Positions 4,525 to 39,852 are shown, numbered from the stretch's first letter. The stretch: 41,339 nt of DNA from an uncultured Verrucomicrobiota bacterium (GCA_903934135.1 CAIZMQ010000090.1:1-41339); one strand, 5' to 3'. The notes: a model not told the origin generated them from the sequence alone. A program made the numbers and translations.

Positions 4525-7500
4525 TCAGGAAACTTGCTTCCGCCGGCGCCACGCGTGTGCGCCCCATCCCGCCGCGGCCAAGGCCAGCAACGCGTAGGTG
4601 CTCGGCTCGGGAACGACCTGGACTTGCATGACCTGCCCGTTGACGTCGCCACTGCCGAAGTTTGCCGTCTGGGCCACCGTTGTGACGGTGATGTTCATGT
4701 TGGTGCCCAAGACGAGGGATTCGTATTGGGCTTTGTTGTAGTAACTGACCCCGTTGTAGGTGGTGGGGCCGTTGGTATTGGCGAAGTAATAATTGTACGT
4801 CGCGCCGCTAATCGAACTGGCGAAACTCGCTGACTGGTCGGTGAAAAAGCCGCCTTGGTATTGCACCGCGGTGCTTCCGGTGAAGAGCGCGGCTCCGCTG
4901 AAGTAAATGAAGACCCCATTGCCCGCGGCGAGGGCCTGACTAAATGGAGTTGCACCCGTGATCCGGATGACATCGTTCACGCTGTTGGATGCATTGTTGT
5001 AGGTCGGAGCAGTGCCGGTCATTTCAAAGTTGAAATCCGTTCCCCCAGAGGGATCCACTTGCGGGGTGGTCAGGATGCCGGGGCTGTTGCCCGGATTGAT
5101 CGCGCCCGCGCCGCCGATCGTGCCGACCGAACCGTAGCCACTGAGGCTCGCGCCGGAGGCCACGGTGACCGCCGAGTTGGCGATCGATCCGCCGGAGAGG
5201 TTGAGGTCGCCGGCCGAGACCGCCGTCGCCCCATTGTAACTGCTGCTCCCGCTCAGACTCAGGCGGCCGATGCCGGTTTTGCTCAGGGAGCCACTGCCAC
5301 TCATCGCCCCGCTGTAAGTGCCGGCCGTGCTCTGATCGAAGGTCACTGCCGCATTGTTGGTGATCGCGCCCTGCAAACTTGTCGTCGTTCCGACGAGTGA
5401 TCCCGCCGAGACCACCGTGCCACGCGTGTAGGTGTTGGCTCCGCTCAGGGTCGTTGTCCCCGTGCCGAGTTGGTTCACTGTGCCGTTGCCGGAGATGACG
5501 GCAGACAGCGTCGTGCTGTTGCTCTGGTTGAAGTTAATCACGCCCGTGCCCGATCCGAAGGCGATGGTCGGTGCAGTGATCGTGCCAGCCGCATCATTGG
5601 TGCCTAAGCGGCCGATGTTCAAGGTGCCGGAGGAACCGGCGTTCGCGGCGATGCTGATAGCCGAGGCCGCGAGGGTGCCACCATCCGATACGGTCAGAGC
5701 GTTGTTGGTGTTCCCGCGCCCCACCGACAGCGTGCTACTGTTGGTCCAAAGCGAGCCTGCACCGCTGACCAGCACGCTGTTGTTTATGGAAGAAAAGCCG
5801 ATGTAGCTGGAAGAAACCGCCACCGTGCCGCCGTTGGAAATGACCAGGCTGTTGCCGCTGCCAGAGCTGCCGACATAAAGCACACTGCGGTTGGTCCAGA
5901 GCGAGCCCGCACCGGTGACCAGCACGCTGTTGTTCGAGGAGGAGCCATTCGCTCCAATGAAAACCTGACCAGCTGTTCCTTCGTCTGACACCGTCCCGCC
6001 GTTACTAATCACCAAGCTGTTGCCGCTGCCCGAGTTGCCGACGTAGATGTCGTAGTAGTTGATCCAGAGCGAGTTCGACCCGGTCACCGTCGCCTTGTTG
6101 TTGCTCGCCGTTGAATTCCGGCCGATGACGGCACCCAAAGTCCTCACCGTCCCTCCATTGCTCACCACCAGCTGGCCGCCGCTGCCAGAGTTGCCGACAT
6201 TGAACTGGCTGGAGAAGTTGTTGGTCAGCACCGATCCCGCCCCGGTTACCGTCACTGTCCCGGCATCGGCCAGCGTGTTGGCCCCCGAGAGGCCCAGCGT
6301 GCCGCCATTGACCGTCGTTCCCCCGGTGTAGGTATTGGTCCCCGAGAGGATCAGCGTGCCAGCGCCCGCCTTGGTCAGACTGCCCGGTCCACTAATCGCA
6401 ATCATCTGGGTCAGGCTGCCCGAGCGGTTGAAGATCAGGCTGGCGTTGTTCACCATCGAAGGGAAGTTGGACCAGTTCAGCGATCCGGTCGTGCCGCCGT
6501 TGCCGATTTGCAACGTGCCCTCGTTGATCGTCATGGTCCGAGCATAGTTCTCTGCCGTGAGGATCAAGGTGCCGGCGCCGGATTTGGTCAGGCGGCCTGG
6601 GCCACCCTCGATTTCGCCGGAGTTGGTGAGGATGATGTTCGCGCCCACATCCATGGTGCCATTGCCAATGAGCGACCAGTTGTTATTCACCTGCACGCTA
6701 GCCAAGGCCGCCACTGTCGCGCCATTGCTAGCGAAGGTGACCCTGTATGAGCCGATCAAGAACGAGCCGAATGCCGATCCGTTGCTGATCGCCACGGTCC
6801 CCTCATTGATCGTCGTGCCGCCGGTGTAGGTATTGGCTGCGCCGAGAACCATGGTTCCAGCACCCGCTTTAGTCAGACTGCCTGCGCCCGAGATCACGCC
6901 GGAGTTGGTGAGGATGTTCGCGCCTACATCCATCGTGCCATTGCCAGTGAGCGCGGAGTTGTTGGTCACCTGCACGCTAGCCAAGGCCGCCACCGTCGTG
7001 CCATTGCTGGCAAAGGTCACGGTGTTACTGCCGAATGACGACCCGTTACTGATCGCCACGGTCCCGGCGTTGATCGTTGTCCCGCCCGTGTAGTTGTTGG
7101 CCGCGCCGAGAACCATAGTCCCTGCACCCGCTTTGGTCAGCCTGCCTGCGCCCGAGATTACGCCGGAATTGGTCAAAACATTCGCACCAACATCCATCGT
7201 CCCATTGCCGGTAAGCGCATAGTTGTTGGTCACCTGCATGCTGGCCAAGGCCGCCACCGTCGTGCCATTGCTACCGAAGGTGACGGTGTTCGATCCAAAC
7301 GACGACCCGTTGCTGATCGCCACGGTCCCCGCATTGATCGTCGTTTCGCCGGTGTAGGTGTTCGCTGCGCCGAGAACCATGGTGCCCGCGCCCGCTTTGG
7401 TCAGGCTGCCTGCGCCCGAGATTACGCCGGAATTGGTCAAAACATTCGCACCAACATCCATCGTCCCATTGCCAGTGAGCGCGTAGTTGTTGGTCACCTG

Positions 7501-10500
7501 CACGCTGGCCAAGGCCGCCACGGTCGGGCCATTGCTGGCAAAGGTCACGGTGTTCGATCCAAACGATGCCCCGTTGCTGATCGCCACCGTGCCCGCATTG
7601 ATTGTCGTCCCGCCGGTGTAGGTGTTGGAGGCGCTGAGCGTCAGCGTGCCCGCGCCATCTTTGGTAAGCGTGCCCGTCGTCGTGCCGATGATGCTTGCCG
7701 CTGTGATGTTGCCCGCGCCACCGAAAGTCAGGCCGAAGGTCGCGCCGGTGATCGTTCCGGTATTGGTCAGGATCAGAGTTCCGGCATCCGCATTGATGCG
7801 GGTGGAATTGGTCAGGGTGATCAAGCCGCCGTAGGCGTTCGATCCCGTGATGTTGCGCAGGGCGCCGCTGGAACTGATGCCCGTGCCCGCCAAGGAGAGC
7901 GACTCGGCTCCGATGCTGAGGTTGCCGCCGACATTGTTCGTGGTGAGCTCCAAGGCCGAGCCGCTCACGATCACCGTGCCGCTGTTGGTCGTGCCCAGGC
8001 CGCTGTCGTTGCCCACGCGGATGGCCCCGGCGTTGTTCGTGACGATGCCGGTGAAGGTGTTGGCCGCGCCGAGCACCATGGTGCCCGCGCCCGCCTTGGT
8101 CAGGCCGCCTGCGCCCGAGATCACGCCCGAGTTGGTCAGGATGTTCGCTCCCACATCCATCGTGCCGCTGCCGGTGAGCGCGTAATTGTTCGTCACCTGC
8201 ACGCTAGCCAAGGCTGCCACGGTCGTGCCATTGCTGGCGAAGGTCACCGTGTTGTTGCCGAACGACGACCCATTGCTGATCGCCACGGTGCCCGCGTTGA
8301 TCGTCGTCCCGCCGGTGTAGGTGTTGGCTGCGCCGAGAACCATGGTGCCCGCGCCCGCCTTGGTCAGGCCGCCTGCGCCCGAGATCACGCCCGAGTTGGT
8401 CAAAACATTCGCGCCCACATCCATCGTGCCGCTGCCGGTGAGCGCGTAGTTATTCGTCACCAGCACGCTGGCCAAGGCCGCCACGGTCGTGCCATTGCTG
8501 GCGAAGGTCACCGTGTTCGAACCGAACGAGGCTCCATTGCTGATCGCCACGGTCCCCGCGCTGATCGTGGTGGTTCCCGAATAGGTATTGGCGCCCGAAA
8601 GGATCATCGTGCCCGCGCCCACCTTGGTCAGACTGCCGCCGCCGCTGAGGATACCCGAGTAAGTCGTGTTGCTGTTGTTAGCTCCCACGTTGAGCGCCAC
8701 CGCTCCGCCCGAGGCATTGGTCAACGCGAGGTTGGTCGAACCCTGCAAACCGCCCAAGTTCGCGCCGGTCAAGTTGCTGAAGGAAACCCTTCCCGCGCTC
8801 GAGTAGTCCAGCGTGCTGGCGCTCAGCGCATTGGTGTTGGCCAAGGAGAGCACCCCGGCGCTCACTGTGGTCGTGCCGCTGTAGGAGTTGGACGCGGACA
8901 GGGTCATCGTGCCCGTGCCACTTTTGGTCAGTCCGCCTGCTCCGCTCAGGACGCCCGACTCGGTTGTCGTCGTTCCCGCAGCGACATTGTAAGTCGTTCC
9001 ATTGAGCGTCTTGCTGCCACTCAGGGTAACCGTTTGCAGCGTGGCTATGTTGTAGAGACTCATCGCGTTGGCCACCGTGCCAGTCGCATTGATCTGCAAG
9101 GTCGAAGCTGCATTGCTTTGCGTGATCGCACCGCTGCCCGCCGCATTGGCGTGGTCGAGCCGCAGCGAGCCCTGCTGCAGGAGGGTTCCTCCATTGTAGT
9201 CATTGCCGGAGTAAGTGAGAACGAGCGCGTTGCTGCCGGTCTTGATGATGCCCGTGTTGGTCATCCCGGAGCTGGTGATCCACGAGTTGATCAGGATATC
9301 GCCGCCGCTCGCATCGATGGTCAGCTTTTGCCCTCCTTCCCAGAGCCAGATGGTGTTCGCGGTGGCGATGGTGGATGCGTAGCTGTCGCTGTTGCGCAGC
9401 ACGCCGCCGGGCGCGGATGCTATCAGATTGCCCCAGCTGTTGGTATCCATGGACCACCCTCTCAGGTCCACGGTGCCCCCATTGCCCACGAAGAGGTTCA
9501 GCCCGGCGCTTCCCGTGCCGCCATTGAAGTTGATCAGGCTGTTGGTGCCATCGGCCGAAAGATGCCCGCCGTTGCCGCCGCGGAGCACGCCGCCGGTGTT
9601 GACGTTGATCGTACCCCCGGAGGCAACGACAAAGGAACCAGCCACCGCCATGGTTCCACCGTTCAGATTCAGCGTGCCGGCGGCCGCACTGTTGCCACTG
9701 ACGGCCAGGTTTTGCGCGGATAGGCTCCCGCTATTGAGATTGAGGATGCCGGTTCCTCCGCTGTGCCCGATGGACACGTTGAGATTCGAGTAGGTCCCGC
9801 CGCTGATGTTGAGCGTGCCGGAGCCGCCGGAACCGACCAGCGTGGTCGCTCTGTTGGAGACAACGCCCCCGGCATTGATCTGCAACGTTCCCGCGCTGAT
9901 TGTCGTGCCGCCCGAGTAGGTGTTGGCTCCGGTGAATATCACCGTGCCCGCGCCGGATTTGCTCAGCGCACCCGTGCCGCTGACCACATTGGTCAGGGTC
10001 AAGCTGTTGGTGCGGTTGATGGAAAGCGTGGCGTTATTGGTGATGTTGCCCGCCACCGAGCCGGTGTTGTCCAACTCGAGCGTGCCCGCGCTGATCGTCG
10101 TGCCGCCGGTGTAGGTGTTCGACGCGCTCAAGGTTGTCGTGCCCGCGCCGAGCTGCTTTACGACACCATTGCCGGAAATGGTGGCGGTGATCGTGGTCGC
10201 ATCGCTCTGGTTAAAGTTGATCACGCCCGTGCCCGCGCCGAAAGCAATGCTCGGCGCAGTAATCGTTCCCGCGGTGTCATTGGTGCCAAAGCGACCGATG
10301 TTCAGCGTGGCAGAGGACCCGTTCGACGCTGCGATGGTCAGACCCGAGCCGGCCGAAGCGTTGCCACCGTTGGCTACTGTGAGAATGTTGCTGAGGCCCG
10401 CGTTGCCGACAAAGAGGCTGAGGGCGTTGCTCCAGCGGGAGCCCGCACCCGTGACCAGCACGCTGTTATTGTCGGCGGGCACATCTCCGCCGATGTAGCT

Positions 10501-11121
10501 GTGAATCCCGACAGTGACCAATCCGCCGTTCGAGATGACCATGCTGTTGCCGCTGTTACCCGAGCCACCGACGAAGAGATAGAGCGCGTTGTTGAAAAGA
10601 GTGTTTGTTCCCGTGACCAGCACGCTGTTGTTCAAAGAAGAACCGAAGGTTCCGATTTGGCTGATCGAGGCCGCCACCGTGCCTCCATTGGAGACGACGA
10701 GGCTGTTGCTGCTGCCGTAAGCTCCGACATAGAGGTAGCCGCTGTTGGTCCAGACGGAATTCGCCCCCGTGACCAGCGCGCTGTTGTTGGAGGAAAAGCC
10801 GGTGTAGCCGATGCTGCCTTCCACATTGGCGACCTTGCCCCCGTTGCTGATGACCAAGCTGTTGCCGCGGCCGTCAAAGCCGACAATCAAGGCGTTCGTG
10901 TTGGTCAGAACCGTGCCGGCACCAGAAACGTTGAGCAGGTTGTTCGTCGCGTTGGTCGTGTAGCCGACATAAGTGTTATTGAAGCGGTTGGTGCCCGAGG
11001 TGAAGTTCGTCGTGACGTTGGCGGCATTGGAACCAACGTAGAGGTCTTGGGCGCGACCGCGCGCCATGGGCAGAAAGAGAACGGCGCAGAGCACCGCGGC
11101 GAGGGAGATGGAGCGTTTCAT
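4525..11121 (-). CDS. Giant PEP-CTERM protein with autotransporter-associated beta-strand repeats
   Basis: 2198 aa; many GAGTLTLSGANTYTGGTTINAGTL-type repeats; signal peptide MKRSISLAAVLCAVLFLPMARGRAQ; tail VPEPSTYALLALAAAGWGAHAWRRRKQVS. Confidence 0.93.
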   Translation of the reverse strand: MKRSISLAAVLCAVLFLPMARGRAQDLYVGSNAANVTTNFTSGTNRFNNTYVGYTTNATNNLLNVSGAGTVLTNTNALIVGFDGRGNSLVISNGGKVANVEGSIGYTGFSSNNSALVTGANSVWTNSGYLYVGAYGSSNSLVVSNGGTVAASISQIGTFGSSLNNSVLVTGTNTLFNNALYLFVGGSGNSGNSMVISNGGLVTVGIHSYIGGDVPADNNSVLVTGAGSRWSNALSLFVGNAGLSNILTVANGGNASAGSGLTIAASNGSSATLNIGRFGTNDTAGTITAPSIAFGAGTGVINFNQSDATTITATISGNGVVKQLGAGTTTLSASNTYTGGTTISAGTLELDNTGSVAGNITNNATLSINRTNSLTLTNVVSGTGALSKSGAGTVIFTGANTYSGGTTISAGTLQINAGGVVSNRATTLVGSGGSGTLNISGGTYSNLNVSIGHSGGTGILNLNSGSLSAQNLAVSGNSAAAGTLNLNGGTMAVAGSFVVASGGTINVNTGGVLRGGNGGHLSADGTNSLINFNGGTGSAGLNLFVGNGGTVDLRGWSMDTNSWGNLIASAPGGVLRNSDSYASTIATANTIWLWEGGQKLTIDASGGDILINSWITSSGMTNTGIIKTGSNALVLTYSGNDYNGGTLLQQGSLRLDHANAAGSGAITQSNAASTLQINATGTVANAMSLYNIATLQTVTLSGSKTLNGTTYNVAAGTTTTESGVLSGAGGLTKSGTGTMTLSASNSYSGTTTVSAGVLSLANTNALSASTLDYSSAGRVSFSNLTGANLGGLQGSTNLALTNASGGAVALNVGANNSNTTYSGILSGGGSLTKVGAGTMILSGANTYSGTTTISAGTVAISNGASFGSNTVTFASNGTTVAALASVLVTNNYALTGSGTMDVGANVLTNSGVISGAGGLTKAGAGTMVLGAANTYTGGTTINAGTVAISNGSSFGNNTVTFASNGTTVAALASVQVTNNYALTGSGTMDVGANILTNSGVISGAGGLTKAGAGTMVLGAANTFTGIVTNNAGAIRVGNDSGLGTTNSGTVIVSGSALELTTNNVGGNLSIGAESLSLAGTGISSSGALRNITGSNAYGGLITLTNSTRINADAGTLILTNTGTITGATFGLTFGGAGNITAASIIGTTTGTLTKDGAGTLTLSASNTYTGGTTINAGTVAISNGASFGSNTVTFASNGPTVAALASVQVTNNYALTGNGTMDVGANVLTNSGVISGAGSLTKAGAGTMVLGAANTYTGETTINAGTVAISNGSSFGSNTVTFGSNGTTVAALASMQVTNNYALTGNGTMDVGANVLTNSGVISGAGRLTKAGAGTMVLGAANNYTGGTTINAGTVAISNGSSFGSNTVTFASNGTTVAALASVQVTNNSALTGNGTMDVGANILTNSGVISGAGSLTKAGAGTMVLGAANTYTGGTTINEGTVAISNGSAFGSFLIGSYRVTFASNGATVAALASVQVNNNWSLIGNGTMDVGANIILTNSGEIEGGPGRLTKSGAGTLILTAENYARTMTINEGTLQIGNGGTTGSLNWSNFPSMVNNASLIFNRSGSLTQMIAISGPGSLTKAGAGTLILSGTNTYTGGTTVNGGTLGLSGANTLADAGTVTVTGAGSVLTNNFSSQFNVGNSGSGGQLVVSNGGTVRTLGAVIGRNSTASNNKATVTGSNSLWINYYDIYVGNSGSGNSLVISNGGTVSDEGTAGQVFIGANGSSSNNSVLVTGAGSLWTNRSVLYVGSSGSGNSLVISNGGTVAVSSSYIGFSSINNSVLVSGAGSLWTNSSTLSVGRGNTNNALTVSDGGTLAASAISIAANAGSSGTLNIGRLGTNDAAGTITAPTIAFGSGTGVINFNQSNSTTLSAVISGNGTVNQLGTGTTTLSGANTYTRGTVVSAGSLVGTTTSLQGAITNNAAVTFDQSTAGTYSGAMSGSGSLSKTGIGRLSLSGSSSYNGATAVSAGDLNLSGGSIANSAVTVASGASLSGYGSVGTIGGAGAINPGNSPGILTTPQVDPSGGTDFNFEMTGTAPTYNNASNSVNDVIRITGATPFSQALAAGNGVFIYFSGAALFTGSTAVQYQGGFFTDQSASFASSISGATYNYYFANTNGPTTYNGVSYYNKAQYESLVLGTNMNITVTTVAQTANFGSGDVNGQVMQVQVVPEPSTYALLALAAAGWGAHAWRRRKQVS
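6640..7620 (-). repeat. Four tandem coding repeats, period 264 bp (88 aa), one unit 279 bp
   Basis: The landmark ca(c/t)gct(a/g)gccaaggc(c)gcc starts at 6694, 6973, 7237 and 7501. Confidence 0.9.
8042..8575 (-). repeat. Two further copies of the same 264-bp coding repeat
   Basis: Same landmark at 8200 and 8464 (264 bp apart), separated from the first array by a different stretch. Confidence 0.9.
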
Positions 11122-15797: not shown

Positions 15798-16157
15798 ATG
15801 CCGACATTCGACAAGCTGACTGCCCATTACTCGCGGATCGGGCGCAAGGGTGGACGCGCGAAGAGCCCTGCCAAAAGTCATGCCGCACGTTTGGCTGCAC
15901 TAGCCCGCTGGGGCGACAGCGGCACCGCATCCATTCCTGCGGGGGAATTGAAAGACAGACAGTGGTATGGCGGAAAAGGTCGCAATGCCGATATCGCCCT
16001 GTGGGACGGACGAAACAAGACCTTCTGGGTGACTTGCATCAATGATTTTATCTCCCCCATCGACTACCCGCGCCCAGGAACCCGCGCGGTGCGCCTCAAG
16101 GGCGAGAAGCATTACGATGACGGGGGAACCTTCCGTCCTCTTCGGGAGATTCGGTGA
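15798..16157 (+). CDS. Small basic protein, possible partner of a nucleotidyltransferase (toxin-antitoxin-like)
   Basis: 119 aa with IGRKGGRAKSPAKSHAARLAALARWG N-terminus; 4-bp GTGA overlap with the next ORF. Confidence 0.55.
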   Translation: MPTFDKLTAHYSRIGRKGGRAKSPAKSHAARLAALARWGDSGTASIPAGELKDRQWYGGKGRNADIALWDGRNKTFWVTCINDFISPIDYPRPGTRAVRLKGEKHYDDGGTFRPLREIR

Positions 16158-16669
16158 GCTTCTCGACAGGAGAGCAAGCGTTGGCGGCTTTGGCCGCACT
16201 TGGCCATAAGCTCGATGAACACGGGACGGAGCCGGTCTCCCTGCTCATTTGCGGCGGGGCTGCCATGAACATCTCCGGCTTGCTGACACGCCTCACGGCT
16301 GATGTTGACGTGCTTGGTGATATGCACGCGAATGGCGAACTCGGCGAAATGCCAGATTGGATTCACGCTATCGCGACGGAAGTGGCAGAGGAGTTGGGTT
16401 TGGAGAGGCATTGGCTCAACGACGCCGCTGCTTCGGTGACTTCCATGGGACTTCCTTCGGGAATTATTCTGCGCGCAACATCCGGGCAAAAACTCAGGCC
16501 ATTTCCTCTCCGTGATCTCTGTGCCTTAGTGAGAGAAAAATCGGCTCCTTGCCTCCGACCCCTAGCCCGGGAACCGGAAACCTCTCACGAAGACACAAAG
16601 AGCACGGAGGCAGCGAGGACGGAGAGACGGTGCATCCGGGGCCCCAGTCCTCCCCCTTCGTTACGTTGA
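16154..16669 (+). pseudogene. DUF6036-like nucleotidyltransferase fragment with repeat-derived C-terminus
   Basis: LLICGGAAMNISGLLTRLTADVDVLGD matches a nucleotidyltransferase-fold start; from about 16490 the frame reads through repeat A. Confidence 0.6.
16508..16609. repeat. Dispersed palindromic element A, copy 2
   Basis: Arms ctccgtgatctctgtgccttagtgagag (16508-16535) and ctctcacgaagacacaaagagcacggag (16582-16609). Confidence 0.85.
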
Positions 16670-16762
16670 CTCCCTCGCTCCCGCTCATCTCGCCTGCGGT
16701 GGCCTGTGGCCATCTGCCCCGAGCGCCCGCGCGCTCCGGTGCTCGTTATCTTTTGTTTAAAA
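16648..16762. repeat. Dispersed element B, copy 3
   Basis: tcctcccccttcgttacgttgactccctcgctcccgctcatctcgcctgcggtggcctgtggccatctgccccgagcgcccgcgcgctccggtgctcgtt. Confidence 0.85.
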
Positions 16763-16765
16763 ATT

Positions 16766-17752
16766 CTAAACCAACCCCTCGCGCTGGAACCACGCGAGGG
16801 TGCGGGCCAGGGTATCTTCCAAAGTGGCGCGGCCGCGCCAGCCGGTGGCTAGGTGGAAAGGGTCGGGGTCGATAACCCAGCGATCCGGCCAGATTTCGCG
16901 GGCGCGGTCGGCGGTGAGGGACGGGACATTTTCCCCGATCGCGGGGATGAACTTCGAGGCAAAGGCGACGGGCTTGAGGAGGAACTGCGGGACGGGCAGC
17001 AGCCTGCCTTTCTTTCCGCTCACTTTGCCGGCGGTGAGCATGAGTTCCGCGTCGGTGATCGTGCCGGGCGATGTGACGTGCGCGACATCCAATCCTCCGC
17101 CGCGCTCGAACCACGCGTCGATCGCGTCGGCCAGATCGTCGGAGGAGACCCAACTGAAATGTTTCAAGGCGCGCCCGGGCTTGGTCCAAATCTTTCCACG
17201 GACCATGCGGAAGAGCGGCAGCGTGGCCTGGTCGCCGGGACCGAGCACCATGGGGGCGCGGAGGAAGCGGACGCGTTGGTGGCCGGCCGCGCGCACGGCG
17301 CGCTCCATTTGCAGCTTGGACTCGCCATACCAGGAGATCGGACGGTCAGGGTGGTCCAACTTTTTGGCCGGGTGGCCTTCAGGAGTTGGGCCGCCGGCCG
17401 ATTGCGAGGAGAGGACAAGCACTTCGGGTGCATCCCCGAGTTGCCTGAGGAGGTCGAGGGTGCCGTCGACATTGACCCGGAAATATTCGTCGCGGGAGCG
17501 GCCGAAAAGGACGCCGGCGCAGTGGACGACGCGATCCACGGAACCGAGATCACGCAGATTCCAGGCGGGGGCGGCGGCTTTAATCATGCGCAGCTTGCGC
17601 ATGCCGGTGGCACCTTCGCGGGCGAGTTGCGCGCGGAGTTTGTCCGCCGAACGGACCGGGGCGATGATTTCATCGACGGCGTCATCGGCCAAGGCACGCA
17701 GGACAAGGGTACGGCCGATGAATCCGGTTGCGCCGGTGACGAGCAGTCGCAT
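16766..17752 (-). CDS. NAD-dependent epimerase/dehydratase, candidate ceramide reductase (CerR-like)
   Basis: MRLLVTGATGFIGRTLVLRAL Rossmann start, SWYGESKLQMERAV; directly downstream of the Spt and GNAT genes. Confidence 0.85.
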   Translation of the reverse strand: MRLLVTGATGFIGRTLVLRALADDAVDEIIAPVRSADKLRAQLAREGATGMRKLRMIKAAAPAWNLRDLGSVDRVVHCAGVLFGRSRDEYFRVNVDGTLDLLRQLGDAPEVLVLSSQSAGGPTPEGHPAKKLDHPDRPISWYGESKLQMERAVRAAGHQRVRFLRAPMVLGPGDQATLPLFRMVRGKIWTKPGRALKHFSWVSSDDLADAIDAWFERGGGLDVAHVTSPGTITDAELMLTAGKVSGKKGRLLPVPQFLLKPVAFASKFIPAIGENVPSLTADRAREIWPDRWVIDPDPFHLATGWRGRATLEDTLARTLAWFQREGLV

Positions 17753-17754
17753 GG

Positions 17755-18909
17755 TCAGAGTGGTTTTTCCCAGATGGTAAAGTCCTTCGACCGGCGGCCG
17801 CCGAGGATTTCGATGCTGCGGACGATCTGTTCGTTGTTCGCCTCGATCCAGGAGACCTCGGAGACCGGGTAGTCGACACCGACTTGGCGGAAAGTTTCGC
17901 GGTAGAGAAAGGGTGCGATGCCGCGGCGGCGGCGGAATTCGGGCTCGATCCCGAGGATGAGATGACGGGCGCGGCGGGGACGGCCGGTTTTGATCATCCA
18001 GAGCATGGGGAGCAGACGGAGAAAGCCGCGCGGCCAGGACAGCGAGCGGCGGAGGAACTCATTGATGTCGGGCAAAGAAATGGAATAGCCGACCTCGCGT
18101 CCTTCGTGCATGACGAAAAAGAGCATGTTTGCCGCGGCAATGGTGCGCAGGCCGGCGGCGGAATGTTCCAGTTCTTCCCAGGTGACCGGGACATAGCCCC
18201 AGTTGCGGTCGAGGGTGACATTGTAGAGACGTTGCAGAATGCGCAGTTCCCGTTCCGGCTTGCGCAGGTCGAAGGGACGGGTGTCGAGCCCGCTTTTCTC
18301 CCTCGCGTGGTCGGAAAGCCGCACCATGACCGGGCTGGCCGGCGCGGTCATGTCCATCTCGAAAGCACAAAGCCGCCGCACCTCGGACAAGCCGAGCCGT
18401 TCGTAGGTCGTGACATAGCGCGGCGGGTTCCAAGGCATGAAAACGCACGGCGGATCCTCGAACCCTTCGCTGAGCAGGCCGCAGGTGTCGTTGATGCTCG
18501 GCGAATAGGGGCCGCGCACGGAGGTAAGTCCGCGCTCCCGCAGCCAGCGGCAGGCGGCGGCGAAAAGCGCGTCGGCCACCTCGTCGTCGGCAAAGTCGAA
18601 AAAACCGAAGAATCCGGTCAGGTCGCGGTGGGTTTCGTTGTGCAGCGGATTGCGGATCGCGGCGATGCGACCGACGGGGCGGCCGTCGCGCAGGGCGAGG
18701 AACGGGGCGAGTTCGCCGCCGGTGGCCAGGAACGGCGAACGCGGTAGGAAGGTGTCGACGATGCTTCCCGGGATCGGCGGGACGAATTGCGGGAAGCTAC
18801 CTAGGACGTCCTCGGCGCAGTTCTCAAACCGCCGCAGTTCGGACCGGCTGCGGCAGGGAAGTATCGTGATGCCTTTGGGGGATTTCCCCGGCGGCTCGCT
18901 GGTAGACAT
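17755..18909 (-). CDS. GNAT-fold acyltransferase, candidate bacterial ceramide synthase (bCerS-like)
   Basis: FLALRDGRPVGRIAAIRN, GFFGFFDFADD, RGPYSPSINDTCGLLSEGFEDPP; 2-nt gap to the epimerase gene. ATG at 18909, alternative TTG at 18918. Confidence 0.8.
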   Translation of the reverse strand: MSTSEPPGKSPKGITILPCRSRSELRRFENCAEDVLGSFPQFVPPIPGSIVDTFLPRSPFLATGGELAPFLALRDGRPVGRIAAIRNPLHNETHRDLTGFFGFFDFADDEVADALFAAACRWLRERGLTSVRGPYSPSINDTCGLLSEGFEDPPCVFMPWNPPRYVTTYERLGLSEVRRLCAFEMDMTAPASPVMVRLSDHAREKSGLDTRPFDLRKPERELRILQRLYNVTLDRNWGYVPVTWEELEHSAAGLRTIAAANMLFFVMHEGREVGYSISLPDINEFLRRSLSWPRGFLRLLPMLWMIKTGRPRRARHLILGIEPEFRRRRGIAPFLYRETFRQVGVDYPVSEVSWIEANNEQIVRSIEILGGRRSKDFTIWEKPL

Positions 18910-20167
18910 CGTCTTCAAAGATATGGAGTTCCCGCGCGATGCGCTCGAAAGTCTCGAGCACGTATTCGAGTTGCTGCGGGGTGTGGGTGGCCATGTAGCT
19001 GGTGCGAATGATGGCCTGGCCGCGGCGCACCGCAGGATAAATAGCCGGCGTGGCGAAGACGCCGTTGTCGAAAAGGCGCTGGGCGAAGAAGAAGGCTTTT
19101 TGCTCGTCTCCGATCAGGATGGGGACGATCGGCGTCTCGGTCGTCCCGATGTGGAAACCGAGTTCGCGGAAGCCGCGGTGCATGCGGCGGGTGTTCTCCC
19201 AGAGTTTCACCATGCGCCACTGCTCTTCCTGCATGACCTCGAGCGCTTTGAGCACGCCGCCGGCCACGGCGGGGGTCGGCGAGGCGGTGAAAATGAAGCA
19301 ACGGGCCTTGTGGCGGACGAATTTGATCACGTCCTTGTCGCCGGCCAGGAACCCGCCCATGCAACCGAGCGATTTGGAAAACGTGCCCATCATGAGGTCG
19401 GCCCGGTCGGCTGTTCCCGTATGGTGGGCGCTGCCCTTGCCGCCTTCGCCCATCACCCCGAGGGCGTGGGCTTCGTCGACGTAGAATTTGGCTCCGAATT
19501 CGCCGGCCACGTCCATCAACTCGGCGAGACGTGCGATATCGCCCGACATGCTAAAAACGCCGTCGATGACCACCATCTTGCCGGCTTCGGCCGGCAGGCG
19601 GGAAAGACGCCGGCGCAGGGATTCGGGAGAATTGTGGGAAAAAGGGATGATTTTGGCCGGCGACATGCGGCAGCCGTCGATGATGCTGGCGTGGTTTTCC
19701 TTGTCGCAGAGGATGAAATCACCCTCCTCGAAAAGGCAGGTCAGCGCACCCTGATTGGCGAAGTAGCCGGTGGAAAAAAGCAGGGCGGAGTCCTTGCCAA
19801 TGTAGTCGGCCAGGCGCTCTTCGAGCTCTTCGTGGATGACGAGGTTGCCGCTGAGGAAGCGCGAACCCGTGCAACCCAGACCATATTTGCGGGTGGCTTC
19901 GACCGCAGCCTCGACCACGCGGGAATCGTTGGCCAGGCCGAGATAGTTGTTCGACCCGACCATGAGGACGCGCTTGCCCTCGCAAATGACTTCGGCGCCG
20001 TCCATTTCCTCGATGGGGCGGAAAAAAGGGTAGATGCCCAGCGCTTGGGCCCTTTCGGGCTCGTCGTAAGCCACGCACTTGGCAAAGAGATCATTGTCTC
20101 CATCCCAGGGATGGCCGTTGAGGGAAGGTGTCACTTCCTCCCCGTTGATGCTGATGATTTTCATCAA
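18824..20167 (-). CDS. spt: Alpha-oxoamine synthase, probable serine palmitoyltransferase
   Basis: NYLGLANDSRVVEAA, GLGCTGSRFLSGNLVIHEELE, DEAHALGVMGEGGKG, GTFSKSLGCMGGFLAGDKDVI (PLP lysine). Confidence 0.9.
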   Translation of the reverse strand: MMKIISINGEEVTPSLNGHPWDGDNDLFAKCVAYDEPERAQALGIYPFFRPIEEMDGAEVICEGKRVLMVGSNNYLGLANDSRVVEAAVEATRKYGLGCTGSRFLSGNLVIHEELEERLADYIGKDSALLFSTGYFANQGALTCLFEEGDFILCDKENHASIIDGCRMSPAKIIPFSHNSPESLRRRLSRLPAEAGKMVVIDGVFSMSGDIARLAELMDVAGEFGAKFYVDEAHALGVMGEGGKGSAHHTGTADRADLMMGTFSKSLGCMGGFLAGDKDVIKFVRHKARCFIFTASPTPAVAGGVLKALEVMQEEQWRMVKLWENTRRMHRGFRELGFHIGTTETPIVPILIGDEQKAFFFAQRLFDNGVFATPAIYPAVRRGQAIIRTSYMATHTPQQLEYVLETFERIARELHIFEDDVYQRAAGEIPQRHHDTSLPQPVRTAAV

Positions 20168-20270
20168 GGTTGCGCCGAAACGAGAAAACTAATGGCCCGG
20201 TCCCGCCTTGGCAATCATGCATTTGAGGCTGTTCCGGGCCTCCAGCCCGAAGGCCGAAAGGGCGGAAAGA

Positions 20271-21122
20271 TCAATTCCGGCTGGTGGCCGGGGTGGCCGA
20301 GCGACCGGTCTCGGCGAAACGCACATCGCCCCGCCTTCTCTGCTGCACAAACGTGTTATTGTCGCCGTATTTTGCCCACGGCCCGCGCGGCACCTCGCGG
20401 AACTCGACAAAACGCCAGCTGGCCACATCTTTTCCTCCCCGCATCCCGATGTAGTCCCGCACGGCGGGTGAAACGTCGAGGCCGGCCGCTTGGTTGAGGT
20501 TGGGGAGCGGACGCTGGTTCCCGAACACATATTGCCAGTGGTCGGTCCGGAACGGCCCGCAATCTTCCCACTGGGCGTAAGCCTCGCGGGTGCGGCCGCG
20601 CACCACAACCCAGCGGCCTTTGCAGACCGATTGGCCCGCTTTGACAAAGGCCTCACGGAACCAGGGAATGACCCGCGGGGCTTCGGGCTTGGTCCGTCCC
20701 TTGGTCACGTCATTGTAGGGAAGGGCAACATAGAAAGGGTTCTGCCTCGGGATGAAGGCGGCCGGCAAATAACCGCGGCGGGTGCGCGGTTCGGGATTGT
20801 CGTAGCCGCCGAAGTTGCGCGCCCACTCGACATCCCAAGAGCTTTTGCAATTCGGAACCGGATTGTTCTGCGTCGGTTGCTCGCCGACCCAGAAGACGGT
20901 GGTGACAATATTGTTTTTCCACGAATGGGAGCGCGAATTGCCCGCCCGCGGCGACGTCTTGACCGAAGGTCGCGAGATACGGGGTTCGACCCGCAGAAGC
21001 ACGCTCTCCCGCAAACGCAGGGCTTGATCCTCGAACGAAGTCGAAGCCTCGGCGCCGGCGGCCAGGGCGGCCAGAAAAAGTCCGGTCAGCGCTGCCCTCA
21101 AGAAGAAATCGGAATTCCGCAT
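20271..21122 (-). CDS. Secreted protein, possibly double-psi beta-barrel-like
   Basis: Signal peptide MRNSDFFLRAALTGLFLAALAAGAEAS; C-terminal WEDCGPF...AGLDVSPAVRDYIGMRGGKDVASWRFVEF. Confidence 0.7.
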   Translation of the reverse strand: MRNSDFFLRAALTGLFLAALAAGAEASTSFEDQALRLRESVLLRVEPRISRPSVKTSPRAGNSRSHSWKNNIVTTVFWVGEQPTQNNPVPNCKSSWDVEWARNFGGYDNPEPRTRRGYLPAAFIPRQNPFYVALPYNDVTKGRTKPEAPRVIPWFREAFVKAGQSVCKGRWVVVRGRTREAYAQWEDCGPFRTDHWQYVFGNQRPLPNLNQAAGLDVSPAVRDYIGMRGGKDVASWRFVEFREVPRGPWAKYGDNNTFVQQRRRGDVRFAETGRSATPATSRN

Positions 21123-21238
21123 GGGTGGAATTGGTAAATATCCGGCCGATCGTCGGACCGCGCAAGCAAAAGACCCCTCCCCCGTTTCAAGGATCCGGCC
21201 CAAAGAGCGGGTCCTCAACGGTTTGGCGGGCGCGCAAT

Positions 21239-22375
21239 TCAGCTCCGCCAACCGGCCGCCGGCCCACGATCACCGTTGCCACGGTGCACCCAGATACTTT
21301 GGAGCAGACCGACACTGAAGAGCACAGCGAGAACAAACGATCCGCCGTAGCTGACCAAAGGCAGGGGCAGACCGGTGATCGGGGTGACCCCGATGGTCAT
21401 GCCGATATTCATGAAGGTGTGGGTGAAAATGAGCGTGGTCAGCCCCACCCCGAGCAAACGGCCGAGGTCATCCCTGGCCTTGAGCGACACGTAGAGGCCC
21501 AGGCCGACAAAGGCGAGGAAGGCAAGGAGCAGAAGTAACCCGCCGATGAAGCCATGTTGCTCGCCGATGACCGAAAAAATGAAATCGTTGTGCACGATCG
21601 TGCTCGGCAGAAAACCCAACTCATTGAGCGTATTCTCCGCCTTGAAACCCTTGCCGTCCCAACCACCGGAGCCGATGGCCGTGAGCGACTGGTTGATCGT
21701 CCAGCCCGCACCCTGAGGATCGAGTTCCGGATCGAGGAAGGTGAGGATGCGCTGCCGCTGGTAGGGTCGCAGACCGAAGTTGACCACCAGCGGGATGACC
21801 GCGACGACGACAAGGATCAGCGTGAGGAGGTAGCGCGCCGGGATACGCGCCGCATAAAGCATGGCCATCATGACCGGCAGCCAGACAATGGACGACCCGA
21901 GATCCGGTTCCGCGAGGATCATCAGGCAGGGCAAGCCGGTGATGGCGCCGCAAAGGGCGATGCGGAGAGGCGAAGGCATGTCCTCGTGGCCGGAAAGGAA
22001 GAGGGCCATGAGCATGATGCCCGCCAGGATGGCCAGCTGCGAGGGTTGGAAGCTCATGAAACCGAGGTCGAGCCAGCTGCCGCTCCCGTAGACCGTTTTG
22101 CCGAAAAGGTGGACGGCAACCAACCCGGCCAAGCCGGCCAGATAAACCGGCAGGGCGCCACGCCGGATCCACCGGTAGTCAAAAAGCGACACCCCGAGGC
22201 AGACCACCAAACCGAGGGCCAGCCAGACGAGTTGGCGGCTCCAGAAGTCCTGGTCTCGGACCCAAGTCGCGCTGTAAATGGCATAGACGCCGAACAGCCC
22301 GAGCAGGATGACAAGGACAAGCAGCGGCCATTGCAGGCCGGTCATTTTGCGGAAAAGATGGGTGATCGTTTTCAT
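21239..22375 (-). CDS. rodA: Rod-shape-determining protein RodA (SEDS family)
   Basis: GSGSWLDLGFMSFQPSQLAILA, EPDLGSSIVWLPVM, NDFIFSVIGEQHGFIG, GLPLPLVSYGGSFVLA; ATG at 22375. Confidence 0.93.
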   Translation of the reverse strand: MKTITHLFRKMTGLQWPLLVLVILLGLFGVYAIYSATWVRDQDFWSRQLVWLALGLVVCLGVSLFDYRWIRRGALPVYLAGLAGLVAVHLFGKTVYGSGSWLDLGFMSFQPSQLAILAGIMLMALFLSGHEDMPSPLRIALCGAITGLPCLMILAEPDLGSSIVWLPVMMAMLYAARIPARYLLTLILVVVAVIPLVVNFGLRPYQRQRILTFLDPELDPQGAGWTINQSLTAIGSGGWDGKGFKAENTLNELGFLPSTIVHNDFIFSVIGEQHGFIGGLLLLLAFLAFVGLGLYVSLKARDDLGRLLGVGLTTLIFTHTFMNIGMTIGVTPITGLPLPLVSYGGSFVLAVLFSVGLLQSIWVHRGNGDRGPAAGWRS

Positions 22376-23706: not shown

Positions 23707-24539
23707 TTCAACTTGTCCCGCAGCACGCCGCTGAAAGTGCGGCCCGGCAGGGTGGCCAGACGCAGTTTTTCCGCGGCGCGCGAAATGCGCAGCACGTCAC
23801 CCGGACCGAAGTCGCGGATCTCCTGTCCGTCCACATTGACCGTGACCCCGGGGCCGCCCCCGACCAAACGCAATTCGAGCCGTGCGTGGTCGGAGACCAC
23901 GGTGGAACGGTTGGTCAGCACGTGCGGGCAGATCGGGGTGATGACAAAGCATGCGCTGTCGGGCAGGAGCAGTGGACCACCGGCCGACATGGAGTAAGCG
24001 GTCGATCCGGTCGGGGTGGCCACGATGAGGCCGTCGGCATGATAGACGGAAAGTTCCTCGTCATCGATGTGCACCGCCACCTTGATCAGTTGCGAATGCT
24101 GGCCTCGGCTAACCACGGCATCGTTCAGGCCGGTCAATGCCTCCACCGTTGCGCCCCCGCGCACCAGTTCAACCCGTAGCATGGTGCGCGCGCTAAGGCG
24201 GAAGTCGCCGGCCGCGATACTTTCCACCGCCTTGGGCCATTCTTCGCCGTGCACGCCGGTGAGAAAACCAAGCGAGCCGACGTTGATGCCGAAAATGGGA
24301 GGCACCTCGCCGCGCACGCGGTGCAAGGCTCGCAGGATCGTGCCGTCGCCGCCGAGCACAATGAGCAGGTCACACGCCGCACCAAGTTGCTGCTCGTCCA
24401 CCCCGCGGGCCCCGACCGCTTCGGCCGTGCGCGCCTCAAGCAGCACTTCGACACCGCGCGTGCCGAGAGCCTCCATGAGGGAGCGGGTCAGAGCGGCTGC
24501 TTCCGGCTTGTCGGCCCTTGCTACGATGCCGGCTTTCAT
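23685..24539 (-). CDS. nadK: NAD kinase
   Basis: LIVLGGDGTILRALHRVRGEVPPIFGINVGSLGFLTG, ATPTGSTAYSMSAGGPLL; ATG at 24539. Confidence 0.95.
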   Translation of the reverse strand: MKAGIVARADKPEAAALTRSLMEALGTRGVEVLLEARTAEAVGARGVDEQQLGAACDLLIVLGGDGTILRALHRVRGEVPPIFGINVGSLGFLTGVHGEEWPKAVESIAAGDFRLSARTMLRVELVRGGATVEALTGLNDAVVSRGQHSQLIKVAVHIDDEELSVYHADGLIVATPTGSTAYSMSAGGPLLLPDSACFVITPICPHVLTNRSTVVSDHARLELRLVGGGPGVTVNVDGQEIRDFGPGDVLRISRAAEKLRLATLPGRTFSGVLRDKLKWSGSNV

Positions 24540-31190: not shown

Positions 31191-34100
31191 TCAGGGTGCC
31201 AGCTCGACTTGGACGCGGTAGAAGCGCCCACCGGTCGAGCCGAGGCCGGTTTCCGTCACGGTCTTGGTCGTGTCGTCGCCGGTCACGGGGTTGGCTTGGC
31301 CGTCCGCGATTTGGGTCACAGCGGTCCAATCATCACCGGAGGTGAGATGGGTGCGGGCCATGACCGTGTAGACGCGACCGGCCACGGTCGGGAATTGGAC
31401 GCGGAAGGTATCGCCGGTCGACTCGACGGCAAGGGCCGGGAAGCCGCTGGCGGCATTCATCGGATTCGAACCAACAATGTATTCCTCGCGGTCCGTCAGA
31501 CCATCGCGGTCAAAGTCGCCGGTGCCATCGCGGTCGAGATTGCCGAAGTTCTCCAATTCCCAGACATCGGGCAGGCCGTCGTCGTCGCGGTCGGGGTGCG
31601 TGCTGCCGCCGTCATCGAAGCCGAGGGTGACGAGGTGCGGGCCGGCGCCGGTGAGTTCGACTTCGACCTGGTGCGTTTGCGCTTGGTTGCGACGCTGCAC
31701 AGTAGTGGTCGCGGCAGTGTCGACGGCCGCGGTGTTGATCTGCGGGGCCTCGACCCAGGCGCGGACCACTTCGCTGCCGCTGGCGTTGGCCACGCTGACG
31801 CGAGTGCTGTTTTCGACCACTTCAGTGGTGAGGCCTTCGTGGCCGTGGAGCATGAGGTCAAGGAGGTTCGGCGAGAGGCCGAAGCGGATGGAGAGTTTGG
31901 AGGGACCGCTCAGCGTGTAGGACGCGGCGAGTTCGCCTTGCGTGGCGGACGTCAGGACGATGGTCTTGCTCACGCCGTCGGTGCTGAAGGTCCAGCCTTT
32001 GGCGCCCCCGGGGGCCGCACTGACGGCATAGTCGGCATTGACACCCGCGCTGCTCCCGGTCGAACCGGTGAGCGAATACCAATCCTTGAAGCCGCTGGTG
32101 CGGTAAGCCGTTTCGTTGCTCAAGCCTTCGTCCTCGGTATCCGTGTTGCCGTAAGAGGCGAAGTTACCCGCCACCTGCCAAATCTTGCCGGTGCCGTCGC
32201 GCAGCCAGGCCGCGGTCATGCGGCCGCCCTTCTTCTCGAAGACAGCGAAGACACGGCTGTTGAAGAGGAGGTATTCATTCTGTCCGTCGAGATCGACGTC
32301 CTCCTCCACCGCCTCGTGGGTGCCGGCGGCGGCCGACGCGTTCCACTGCTCGACGCGCGCGTAGACTTTGGCAAAGCGGGCTTGGCCTTGGGTGTTCCGG
32401 GCGAAGGGGGCCAGCGATTGGTTCTCGAGCGACGCGGGGTTGATGTAATCGCCGGTGCTGAATTTGCTCAGGTCGTTGGCTTGGCCCGCATTCGGCAGGT
32501 AGAACGCGGTTTGGAACATGGCGCCTCCGATGACCGCGCGGGCCACGTCCTGCAGGTGGCCGGAGGTGGCGGTCTTGGCGGCATTCCATGCCGCATTGGC
32601 ATGGCCGTCGCCGCCGACCCGGCCGAAGGCGCTGTCCGCGGTGAAGGTCTGGGTCTTCAGCTTGTTGAACCAATTGTCATAATTTTCCCGGGTGGCCCAG
32701 TCGACCCAGTCTTTGGCCGTCTGGCGCAAGTCGCGGCCGGTGCCCTGATCGACCGTGCCCCAAGTTCCGACAAGTTGCCCGTTGTCTTGCCGCGGGTATT
32801 GGATCTGACCCGCGACGATCTGCCCGGCGGTGACGAGGCGGACCCAAGGACGGCTGGCCAGCCAGCGGACGTTGGCGTCATAGCTGGTGGCTTTGGCGTC
32901 GCTGGAGAACTCATCGAAGTCGCGCCAGAGGACAACGACTTGGTCCTGCGTGCCGCTGCGGGAGCGGCGGGAGAGGAGTTGGCGGACGGGCAATGGCGTG
33001 CCCTCGTCGAGCGTGCTGTTTAGGTAATCGCTGGCCACGTCATGAATGGGGAAAATTTTCAGCCCATTGACTTCATTGAGGCGGTACCCCGAGGTGCTCA
33101 AAGCGTTGCTCCGGCCGAACCACTTGACGAAGTGACGCATTTGGTCGGCGAAGGTGTAGCCGTAGCCCATGCCCTGGATCATGGTCAGGGTCTCGTCGTC
33201 GAGGACGCGCTCAGCCGGCCAGAAGATGCTGCGCGAGGCGGCCGGCTGGTTGTCGCCGTAAATGGTATCGAGGAATTTTTCCGCAACCTCTTTGTTCGCG
33301 AGGTTGAACTCGGGGAGGAAATATTTCGGCACGTGGTCGGCGAAGGTCGAGCCGACGAGGGAAACTTTCCCTGCACCGACCAGTGCCTTGACCGCGCGGT
33401 TGAAGCTGGGTCCGTCGTTGTTCGGCCACGGGCCGGCATTCGGGTTCTTGGCCCATTGGAGCGCGGAAGCGAGCGTCGGGGTGATGTGGAGGGTGAGTGG
33501 CGCGTTGTAGGCCTCGTGAGTCTCGAGCAGGCGGGAGTAACCGACGGCGGGGGTGCCGCGGCGAACCCAGGTCTGCGCGGTCTCGGCCCGGTCGATAGCT
33601 TGGTTGCCGTGGGCGAGAAGCATGACTTTGGCGTTCCTGTTGCGGTCGTTGCTTCCGCTCCGGCCGAAGAAGCTGGAGAGCTTGCCGTTGAGGCGGATGT
33701 TGTCCTGATCCCGCCAGAAATCGGAGGCCAGCCAGTCGTCGTAGATGGTGTCGCGGATGTCGTTGCGGCCCGGAATGTCCCCGCTGCCGCTGCCGATAGT
33801 GTTCGGCATGGTGCTGAAGACTTGGAAGTTGAGCGTGTCCGGATTGCCGCCCCAGCCGGCATCGATGAGGTGCTGCCGGTCGACGGAAATCTCGACCGCA
33901 TCATAGCGACTGGACCAGGCGATGCGGTCGAGTCCGGTGCCGAAGCCGCGCGAAATAACGCCGAAGCTGGCCGGGTTCTGGAACTGGTCGATCGTGTTAT
34001 TGCCGCGGTTGGTGTCGATGAAGATCGAGCCGAAGTCTTGGCCATAGGCCGCGACGACCGCCTCCCAGCGCATGTCGGTGGCGATGTCGACCTCGTTGGG

Positions 34101-37100
34101 AATGGCGCGCTCGCCGACGGCGGGGCTGCCCATGTCGATGACGATGTAGGCAGCGACCTGGCCCTGCCAAGCATTCGGCGCGAGGTCCATGAAGTCGACG
34201 CGGAAGTAAACACGTCCGTCGGCGGCGCCGCCATCGCGGAAACTGAAGGCGACGGTGTCGCGCGAGCTGTCGCTGGCATTGGTGCGGTAGACATCGGCGC
34301 CCTGGCTGCCGCCTTCATTGTATTCATCGAGCACGAGCAGATCTTCGTGCGTCCAATCGGTGAAGCTGCCGATGGTGATGGCCCCCTCGCCCGCCCCGCC
34401 TCCGCCGCCAGTGTTGGACTGGTTCGGTTGCGTGCCGTTGGCAAGTTCGGAGGCGTTGTCGAGGTCGTCGTTGTCGGGATCGCCCGCCGGACCGTTGTTG
34501 ATGTTGCCGGGGCCGCCGTCGCGGAAGCTGTAAGTGCCGTTGTCGAGCGGATCAAGGCCGTGGTTGACCTCCCAGCCGTCGGGCAGTCCGTCACCGTCCG
34601 TGTCAGTGCGCAACGGATCGGTCTCGCTAATGACGATTTTCGGCCAACCGTCGGTCTGCGCGGTGCCGTTGCCGCCGGGCGCGTAGGCGGCGAACAGCGC
34701 GGTGTAATTGATCGCCCGCGAGGCGGCGGCGCCGAGGCGGAATTGCGGGTTGGCCGACAGGAGCAATTCGGTGAGCGTTCCGTCCTCAGCCTTGAGGAAG
34801 ATTTCGGTGCGACCGTTGAAATTCTGATCCTCGCCGGTGCCGTCGTTCAGCCCGTCACCATCGGAGTCGGTTTTGGCGGAAGTGGTCTCCTGCCAAGTCT
34901 CAAAAGACTCGATTGTGTTGTTGGGCCAGTCGCCGAGATTCGGGCGGTTCGCGCTGTCGGTGTATTGGTTGATCGTGGCGGCAAGTTGCAGTGGTTTGCC
35001 GTCTCCGTCGGTCCAACCGTTGCGGTTGGCATCCTCGACGCCATCGGAGAGACCGTCACCGTCGGTGTCGCGATTGAGCGGATCAGTCACCGAGCCGGCC
35101 GCTTGGCGGGCGCGGTCGTCGCCTTGGCTCTGCGAGCCGACGCCGGGCACCGCCGGATGGTTCTGCACCACGGCATAAAGCGGGGGATCCAGGTCGCCGA
35201 TGAAGTTGGGGGACCCATCGCCGTTGCTGTCGGCCGTCAAATCGGTCGGCGGCGAGGACGCCGTGCGCCAGCCGACCTCGAGAGCGTCAGGCAAGCCGTC
35301 GCTGTCGCTGTCGGGGCTGGTCGGAAGCGAGCGGCCGGTGGCGAAGTAGGTGTGGACGTCGCCGTTGCTCCACGTCTCGGCGTTTCCGGGCGGGAGCGCC
35401 TTGCGGTTGCTCTCGTCGATGTTGACCAATCCGTCGTTGTCGTCATCGCGGTCGTCGAAGCCGGAAGGCTCGACGATTTGGCGCAGGACGACGGAAGCAT
35501 TGCGCGACGTTCTGGTGACAACGCCGTCAAGCGGTGCTTCGGCTTCGATGACGTAGCTGCCGGGTGCGGTGATGTTCCACGTGTAGCTCCAAAGCCTGAT
35601 GTTGCCGTTTGTTTCGGATACGGGGTCTCCGCTGACGGCGATGCCGGTCAGCGCCGGTGCGTCGGTCACCCCGGAGTCGGTCTCCACTTGGACCACGTAG
35701 GCCATGGCATCGGGACCCGGACCGTCGGGAAGAATGAGTTCCGTCGGACGGCCGTCGGGGCCGACCACGGTCGGGCGGGTGATACGGAGGAAGGGTTTGT
35801 CGCTCGCGTTGACGGTGACGCGCCGGATGGCCGTGAAGGTGCGGTTGGTGTCGCCCGGATCGCGATAGACGACGCGGAACTCCTGCTGGGGCACGGCGGA
35901 GTTGTAAAGATTCGGCAAAGGGATAGAGAGCTGGTGAAAGGCGCTGCCGGGACCGAAGCTGCCGTAGTCGATGGACCAACTGTCGCGGTCCTGCGCATTG
36001 CCCTCGGCCAGGAACGTGAACCGCGCCATCATCTGCTCCGGCGTGATGGAGACATTGCTCCATGTCTTGGGGAACCAAACGCGCATGATGTAGTTGTCGT
36101 CGACCTCGTCGCCGTCATTGGCCGGGAAGGCGACAAGGAGGCGCTCCGCGTTGCCCAGGGTCTGGACGCTGCGGGTGATCTCGCGCACGTGGGCCGCGGC
36201 CGCCCCGAGGCTGAGATCGCGGGACGAGGAGGCCTCGAGGAGGCGGACTTTGATCGTCGCTGCACCGGAAACCGGGATGTTGTTGTAGGTGAACCGCCAC
36301 TCTTTCTGGTGGGGACTGTCGATCGACAGGCTGGGTGTCACCTCGATGGCCCGGGCCCAGGTCGGATTCAGGGTCGTGTCATAGCTTCCGTTGCCGTTGA
36401 GATCGGTGAAAGTTTCACCCTCGTTCCAAACGCCGTTGTTGTTGGCGTCGACAAAGGGCTCGAAGCCGGCTCCGTTTCCGTTCTGCCGGCGCGTGACTGC
36501 ATCGTCGTTGTCGGTCTCGGAGTCGGCGATGGAATACCAGACTTCCTCGACGGTCATGTCGGTGCGGACCACCATTTCGTAGCCGGATCCACCAACCGTT
36601 TCGCCGTTGGTGGCGGGGAAAGCCAGTTCGCCATCGGGCGTCTTTGCGTCATAGTAAAACGTCTGGACAAAGGTGTTGTAGAGCGCGGCTTCGTTATGGC
36701 TGGCATCGAGCGCCGGTTTGCCAGTCGTGGGATAGGCGTTGCGCTTGAGGAAGGCGCGGGCGCGCAGGACGTGGAAGCCCTCGCTCAGGCCGGTCTGCAT
36801 GGCGAAGGGCCATTGGTCGTAGGATTTGTCGACCTGCGGTGTGCGTGCGTAGTCGTTGTGCGGGAAAAATTGGACGGTTTCCGGATTGAAATCGGCCACA
36901 CGAAAGGTGGTCATCATCATTTTCTTGTAGGCGACCGAACCCGCGTCGCCCGGCCACCAGGCGGGGGCACCGGTACCCTCGTTTTTGCAGAAACCGATCT
37001 TGTAGGTGAACTTCGTGCCGGCCGGCGGCTTGGGAATACTGGCTGAACCCCACCAGTCGTCGGTGCTTTGGTTGTGACGGAAGTTGAGTTCGGCCGATTT

Positions 37101-39629: not shown

Positions 39630-39852
39630 GGGGGAGAAGTCCAAAGTCCCAGATCTTTTTCTGTTGTCAAGGGTGGCGGCCATGGATTTAAAGAGAAAAT
39701 GGCCTGTGCGAAGACGTTTTTACTCTGTTAATTCAGACAGTCGTTTAACTTGTTTGTTCATTTTTACCAACAAAAATAGCGCTGCTCAGTGTCGCTGGGA
39801 CGGCGGGGTTGGCATCGGGGCTGGTTGGGCGTAAAGACATGGCCAACACCTT

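Follow-up and report, generated by a model that had tools for sequence, protein, structure and literature searches.

Three open reading frames lie head to tail on the minus strand of a contig from a freshwater-type verrucomicrobial bacterium. They encode an alpha-oxoamine synthase, a tandem-GNAT protein and an extended-SDR "epimerase", and all three were found where the original prediction had put them (16766–20167). The contig, here called the window, is the whole stretch of DNA that was analysed (41,339 bp); it is contig 90 of a 2.27-Mb genome, in 182 contigs and 89% complete. The closest relatives bearing the locus are metagenome-assembled genomes (MAGs) of Chthoniobacterales (Verrucomicrobiota). 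Features of the locus are as follows.

18824..20164, minus strand: spt, serine palmitoyltransferase-like alpha-oxoamine synthase, 446 aa from ATG 20164 (NCBIfam, PDB, tree, catalytic residues)
18824..18909, minus strand: spt/bcerS coding overlap, 86 bp (same place in related Chthoniobacterales loci)
17755..18909, minus strand: bcerS-like N-acyltransferase with predicted tandem GNAT fold, 384 aa (YghO homology, AlphaFold/Foldseek)
16766..17752, minus strand: cerR-like extended SDR, putative reductase, 328 aa (Pfam Epimerase at 69.7 bits, tree, motifs)

For the synthase, a start at ATG 20164 is more likely than one at TTG 20167, which would give 447 aa. The genes had been described as having no real gaps. 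This is true of the GNAT stop and the SDR start codon (ATG), which are only 2 bp apart; the synthase and GNAT genes actually overlap. Scanning of 16500–21300 found no sigma-70 promoter, and terminator-like sites there were at about chance level.

Identity of the synthase

Pfam PF00155 (aminotransferase class I/II) matched the synthase at 186.7 bits, and its PLP lysine, K265, lies within the motif GTFSKS. The top NCBIfam model was SerpalmtaseCFB (NF047600, the Bacteroidetes-type Spt equivalog) at 500.6 bits, followed by the other Spt type (402.5), a Kbl-related model (397.5), Kbl (382.9) and BioF (378.3). We file the protein as an Spt rather than as the narrow NF047600 equivalog, because its score does not reach the curated cut-off of 640 bits; the synthases from such clusters in Aureispira, Rubrobacter and Streptomyces likewise score below it.

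The best PDB match was the Sphingobacterium SPT (3a2b/8guh, E 6e-124), with Sphingomonas Spt also among the best. Alignment to the solved Spts showed identity at H159, D231, H234, K265 and R388, the last corresponding to Sphingomonas R390. In the Sphingomonas structure the catalytic residues are these same five (H159, D231, H234, K265 and R390). Sphingomonas R378 is not kept in the window protein (I376), nor in the Sphingobacterium Spt. Residues 36–414 align without gaps to the Sphingobacterium multivorum enzyme, with identical catalytic residues; the window synthase differs in having ∼20 extra N-terminal residues and a C-terminal tail whose codons lie within bcerS. Cysteate acyltransferase (sulfonolipid synthesis) was rejected as first choice for the enzyme, its solved representative scoring far lower than serine palmitoyltransferases (224.8 vs 417.2 bits).

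A maximum-likelihood tree placed the synthase with Sphingobacterium, Bacteroides, Sphingomonas, E. coli-type and other Spts, on a branch with support of only 89/84. The non-Spt side of this tree held E. coli and Bacillus Kbl, E. coli BioF and the host genome's own BioF-like protein. Forcing the synthase to group with Kbl/BioF made the tree 26 log units worse (AU test, p = 0.036), and a Kbl or BioF identity was rejected on these two results. For the original prediction, clustering with Kbl, BioF or HemA would have counted against the proposal; the synthase groups instead with the solved Spts, HemA having been compared by model score only (276.8 bits). Only one further gene in the host genome is closely similar to the synthase, a BioF-like gene on contig C148, so the window gene is not required to account for biotin synthesis. 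Strong homology thus argues that the protein is serine palmitoyltransferase-like, predicted to condense serine with a long-chain acyl thioester.

Identity of the GNAT protein

Neither Pfam nor NCBIfam gave a match to the GNAT protein or to E. coli YghO, and naming it through these libraries was dropped. Direct comparison with YghO of E. coli BL21 showed 30% identity across residues 14–384. YghO is the published orthologue of Caulobacter CC_1154, a ceramide acyltransferase (PMC9386255), and this bears out the earlier proposal that the GNAT gene is related to Caulobacter bcerS. In BL21, yghO adjoins genes for a fatty acyl-AMP ligase, an epimerase, an ACP and Spt. The K-12 strain MG1655 differs from BL21, having an IS5 element beside yghO and no spt cluster there. 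Over nearly its full length the GNAT protein is 28–34% identical to proteins from spt clusters of Rubrobacter, Roseomonas, Diaphorobacter, Aureispira, Streptomyces, Sphingomonas and E. coli. Comparisons to Caulobacter were made through the published BL21 orthologues and the Sphingomonas and Roseomonas clusters.

An AlphaFold model of the GNAT protein was built from ten close sequences (pLDDT 68). With this model as query, Foldseek ranked tandem-GNAT proteins best (E 6e-11), at a TM-score of about 0.5, a moderate match to a model of that pLDDT; mycothiol synthase, FemX and N-myristoyltransferase ranked lower. A predicted tandem-GNAT fold suits an N-acyltransferase role. From homology and modelled fold we infer that the protein is bCerS-like, a predicted N-acyltransferase of a sphingoid base.

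Several genomes carry more than one bCerS-like gene (G052, G420, G425 and G450), which hints at differing acyl preferences. G052 has three in all, two of them in tandem (L080:6125-8508). Another bCerS-like gene, L035 (G121:C1:2089039-2090151), has one in-frame TAG within the matched stretch.

Overlap of spt and bcerS

The GNAT frame can begin at ATG 18909 or upstream at TTG 18918, and has no later ATG, GTG or TTG near its N-terminus. The overlap with the synthase gene is therefore genuine, and at least 86 bp long. Within it are the codons for the final 27 residues of Spt, which lie beyond the point where the alignment to solved Spts stops, and for the first 28 of bCerS. All nine related contigs likewise have the GNAT start codon within the synthase gene; the overlap is 86 bp in eight of them and no shorter than 80 bp in the remaining one. 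In other families of the order it is longer (110–146 bp, by likely ATG starts). Base differences within the overlap fall on every codon position, as is expected where two reading frames constrain each other, so they do not point to one frame as the selected one. The arrangement suggests that Spt and the acyltransferase are translationally coupled. The Spt tail is an overprinted protein end (18824–18909), of a kind seen also at L037, L038, L043, L044 and L046.

Conservation of the cassette

The cassette is intact in nine other Chthoniobacterales contigs, with gene order and strand kept and with identities of 80–99% for the synthase, 66–99% for the GNAT protein and 65–96% for the epimerase. The arrangement is thus not due to chance; the three genes form a real, conserved set. 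The full triplet was found in the window, these nine contigs, four other genomes of the order (L037, L038, L043 and L044) and two more distant ones (L039 and L041). An SDR gene lies directly downstream, at 2–159 bp, in all ten Chthoniobacterales loci and in the four other genomes of the order.

Each of the 11 genus members sampled has the GNAT gene, as do 93 of 147 genomes of the order and 45 of 388 Verrucomicrobiota genomes. An alpha-oxoamine synthase gene is close by, within the stretch read, at 19 of the 26 strongest verrucomicrobial GNAT loci, including all eight from the window's order. Some verrucomicrobial relatives have spt and the GNAT gene without this SDR, and in Aureispira spt and GNAT are in tandem with the epimerase divergent.

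Comparison with known systems

The Caulobacter crescentus set comprises spt (CC_1162), cerR (CC_1164) and cerS/bcerS (CC_1154), together with aasR and acpR; its E. coli BL21 orthologues run from ECD_02850 (yghO) to ECD_02854 (spt). Homologues of all three core genes (Spt, GNAT-type acyltransferase and SDR reductase) are found in the window. The window cassette differs in having no adjoining acyl-ACP synthetase or acyl carrier protein: neither acpR nor aasR of the five-gene rhodobacterial ceramide system was found among the genes flanking it. It differs also in its spt, which is of the Bacteroidetes rather than the rhodobacterial type. Bacterial cerS has been described as always in a separate operon (PMC11324152). 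In contrast to the proteobacterial arrangement, the window bcerS overlaps spt and belongs to one operon with it.

The order spt, GNAT, epimerase, with short overlaps, is also seen on Rubrobacter radiotolerans plasmid 1 (NZ_CP007515) and on a plasmid of Streptomyces sp. NBC_01001 (NZ_CP108712). Identities to the window proteins (spt/GNAT/epimerase) are 46/34/30% for Rubrobacter and 41/28/35% for Streptomyces, the last over partial length of the epimerase, and the spt-GNAT overlaps there are 8 bp and 4 bp, compared to 86 bp in the window. The original description of a minimal three-gene cassette is correct for the locus, then, but the cassette is not unusual, given the same order in these two organisms.

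A Black Sea survey reported Spt-like proteins in 22 Verrucomicrobiota MAGs and counted potential sphingolipid producers in 40 phyla (PMC11334938). Those proteins come from the same phylum as the window. The MAGs are marine, and the available portions of the survey hold no description of a cassette in this Chthoniobacterales genus.

The putative reductase

The SDR has a Rossmann nucleotide-binding motif (GxxGxxG; GATGFIG, residues 7–13) and the YxxxK motif (YGESK, residues 142–146). In a tree that took in 19 other SDRs of the host genome and six E. coli sugar-nucleotide or related SDRs, it joined the CerR references (E. coli, Sphingomonas and Roseomonas) and other cassette SDRs with support of 99/95, and this group was set apart from most sugar epimerases. 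The tree agrees with the original proposal that the epimerase is CerR-like; the reciprocal best-hit test gave no single partner. A second host SDR (C20:1433-2416) also falls inside the CerR group, and the CerR references match it about equally to, or better than, the window SDR. By inspection only, the C20 gene is surrounded by polysaccharide-like genes, so that context favours the window SDR as the CerR candidate. The cerR assignment is the weakest of the three identifications.

Caulobacter CerR is reported to be periplasmic. Inspection revealed no signal peptide on the window SDR, which opens straight with the Rossmann strand, and the E. coli and Sphingomonas relatives likewise have none at the N-terminus. 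This weakly suggests cytoplasmic reduction, the E. coli and Sphingomonas relatives looking alike in this respect.

Proposed pathway and alternatives

We consider it probable, from homology and gene linkage, that 16766–20164 is a bacterial ceramide-synthesis operon; the sequence evidence thus supports the original prediction. The most likely product would be an (oxo- or dihydro)ceramide formed from acyl-CoA and serine. In the first step, for which homology is strong, the PLP enzyme Spt would join an acyl thioester to serine with loss of CO2, yielding 3-oxo-sphinganine. The acyl donor would most likely be acyl-CoA, because that is the substrate of Bacteroidetes-type Spts (PMC11324152) and because the neighbourhood holds no ACP partner. 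In the second, the tandem-GNAT protein would acylate the amine with another fatty chain, as its homology to YghO/CC_1154 and its linkage suggest. In the third and weakest step, the SDR may reduce the 3-keto group with NAD(P)H to give dihydroceramide.

The order of acylation and reduction in bacteria is generally disputed. If translation of Spt and the acyltransferase is coupled, reactive 3-oxo-sphinganine could be consumed at once. We tentatively raise the possibility, which we would not yet favour, that in this Chthoniobacterales genus the overlap ties Spt output to the N-acyltransferase, such that acylation of 3-oxo-sphinganine comes first and cytoplasmic reduction follows.

In another reading, Spt and bCerS act as proposed while the SDR has a different substrate, for example a sugar of the headgroup or some other keto lipid, and an unlinked enzyme reduces the keto group. 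The split reciprocal best match and the relatives with spt and GNAT but without this SDR fit such a scheme, as do the description of an unrelated KDSR (BT_0972) and the proposal of a KDSR for Bacteroides. Yet the gene is kept directly downstream throughout the Chthoniobacterales loci and the four further genomes of the order, and its product groups with the CerR references; we judge this scheme unlikely.

Alternatively, the same pathway logic could apply to another amino acid (alanine, glycine or cysteate), giving a 1-deoxyceramide-type lipid or a sulfonolipid. Substrate choice within Spt-like enzymes is not readable from the sequence tests made, and PMC11334938 considers 1-deoxyceramides in connection with these three gene families. 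Against this, the solved cysteate C-fatty acyltransferase trails the serine palmitoyltransferases by score, and the tree puts the synthase with Bacteroidetes-type and other Spts, making another amino acid quite improbable.

Least credible by far is an ordinary small-molecule enzyme of the Kbl/BioF type that happens to lie near an unrelated acetyltransferase and a sugar epimerase: alpha-oxoamine synthases are all alike, as the Kbl (383 bits) and BioF (378 bits) scores attest, but the tree and AU test, the separate BioF-like gene, the conservation of the triplet across phyla and the homology of the GNAT protein to the ceramide gene yghO all speak against it.

Flanking genes and headgroup candidates

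Upstream of the cassette are a gene for a protein with no Pfam match and an FtsW/RodA-family gene; downstream are unrelated ORFs. Two short plus-strand ORFs (15798–16157 and 16154–16669), overlapping by 4 bp, face the end of the cassette; neither had a Pfam match, and they possibly form a two-gene module. Elsewhere in the window, on the minus strand, 4525–11121 encodes a repeat-rich, secreted-looking protein of 2,198 aa with a C-terminal PEP-CTERM-like sorting motif, and 31191–39683 is an ORF of 2,830 aa whose scanned part matches the bacterial TSP3 repeat and glycosyl hydrolase family 57.

The cassette itself has no headgroup enzymes. Three CDP-alcohol transferases are encoded elsewhere in the host genome, unlinked, and are possible headgroup enzyme candidates. 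No diacylglycerol/ceramide-kinase-type gene (PF00781) scored above the cut-off in the genome; there was a single weak match, at 24261–24503 of the window. In another family of the same order, one locus (L065:4547-11294) brings together spt, a CDP-alcohol phosphatidyltransferase, GNAT, a second CDP-alcohol transferase and an NTP transferase, possibly a headgroup pathway. CDP-alcohol phosphatidyltransferase and NTP-transferase genes are found likewise in sphingolipid clusters of Proteobacteria.

Fusion proteins of ∼1,320–1,350 aa were noted in another family of the same class (L077:2645-6619, and also L074, L075, L076 and L078). They have ketoacyl synthase, acyl carrier and dehydratase-like domains followed by a C-terminal alpha-oxoamine synthase (domains checked in two). 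The fusion genes adjoin or overlap a bCerS-like GNAT gene, with a PAP2 gene following in L077. They look like a one-protein form of the PKS and AOS (SgaA/SgaB) sphinganine route of Pseudomonas fluorescens MYb115 (PMC12134224).

Implications

The three genes also stand together in Rubrobacter and Streptomyces, and Spt-like proteins had already been reported from Verrucomicrobiota (PMC11334938). Sphingolipid production by Verrucomicrobiota is a prediction, and we found no measurement in isolates in the literature consulted. We infer from the genes that this bacterium makes ceramides. The cassette is a compact, clone-ready candidate ceramide operon without the ACP branch, and a three-gene set of this kind would be useful for settling the order of acylation and reduction in bacteria. 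Were acylation and then reduction to take place in the cytoplasm, the compartment layout would be unlike the cytoplasm-periplasm split reported for Caulobacter, and a lineage not known to carry sphingolipids in its envelope would do so. The finding marks Chthoniobacterales as a lineage whose membranes merit a check for sphingolipids.
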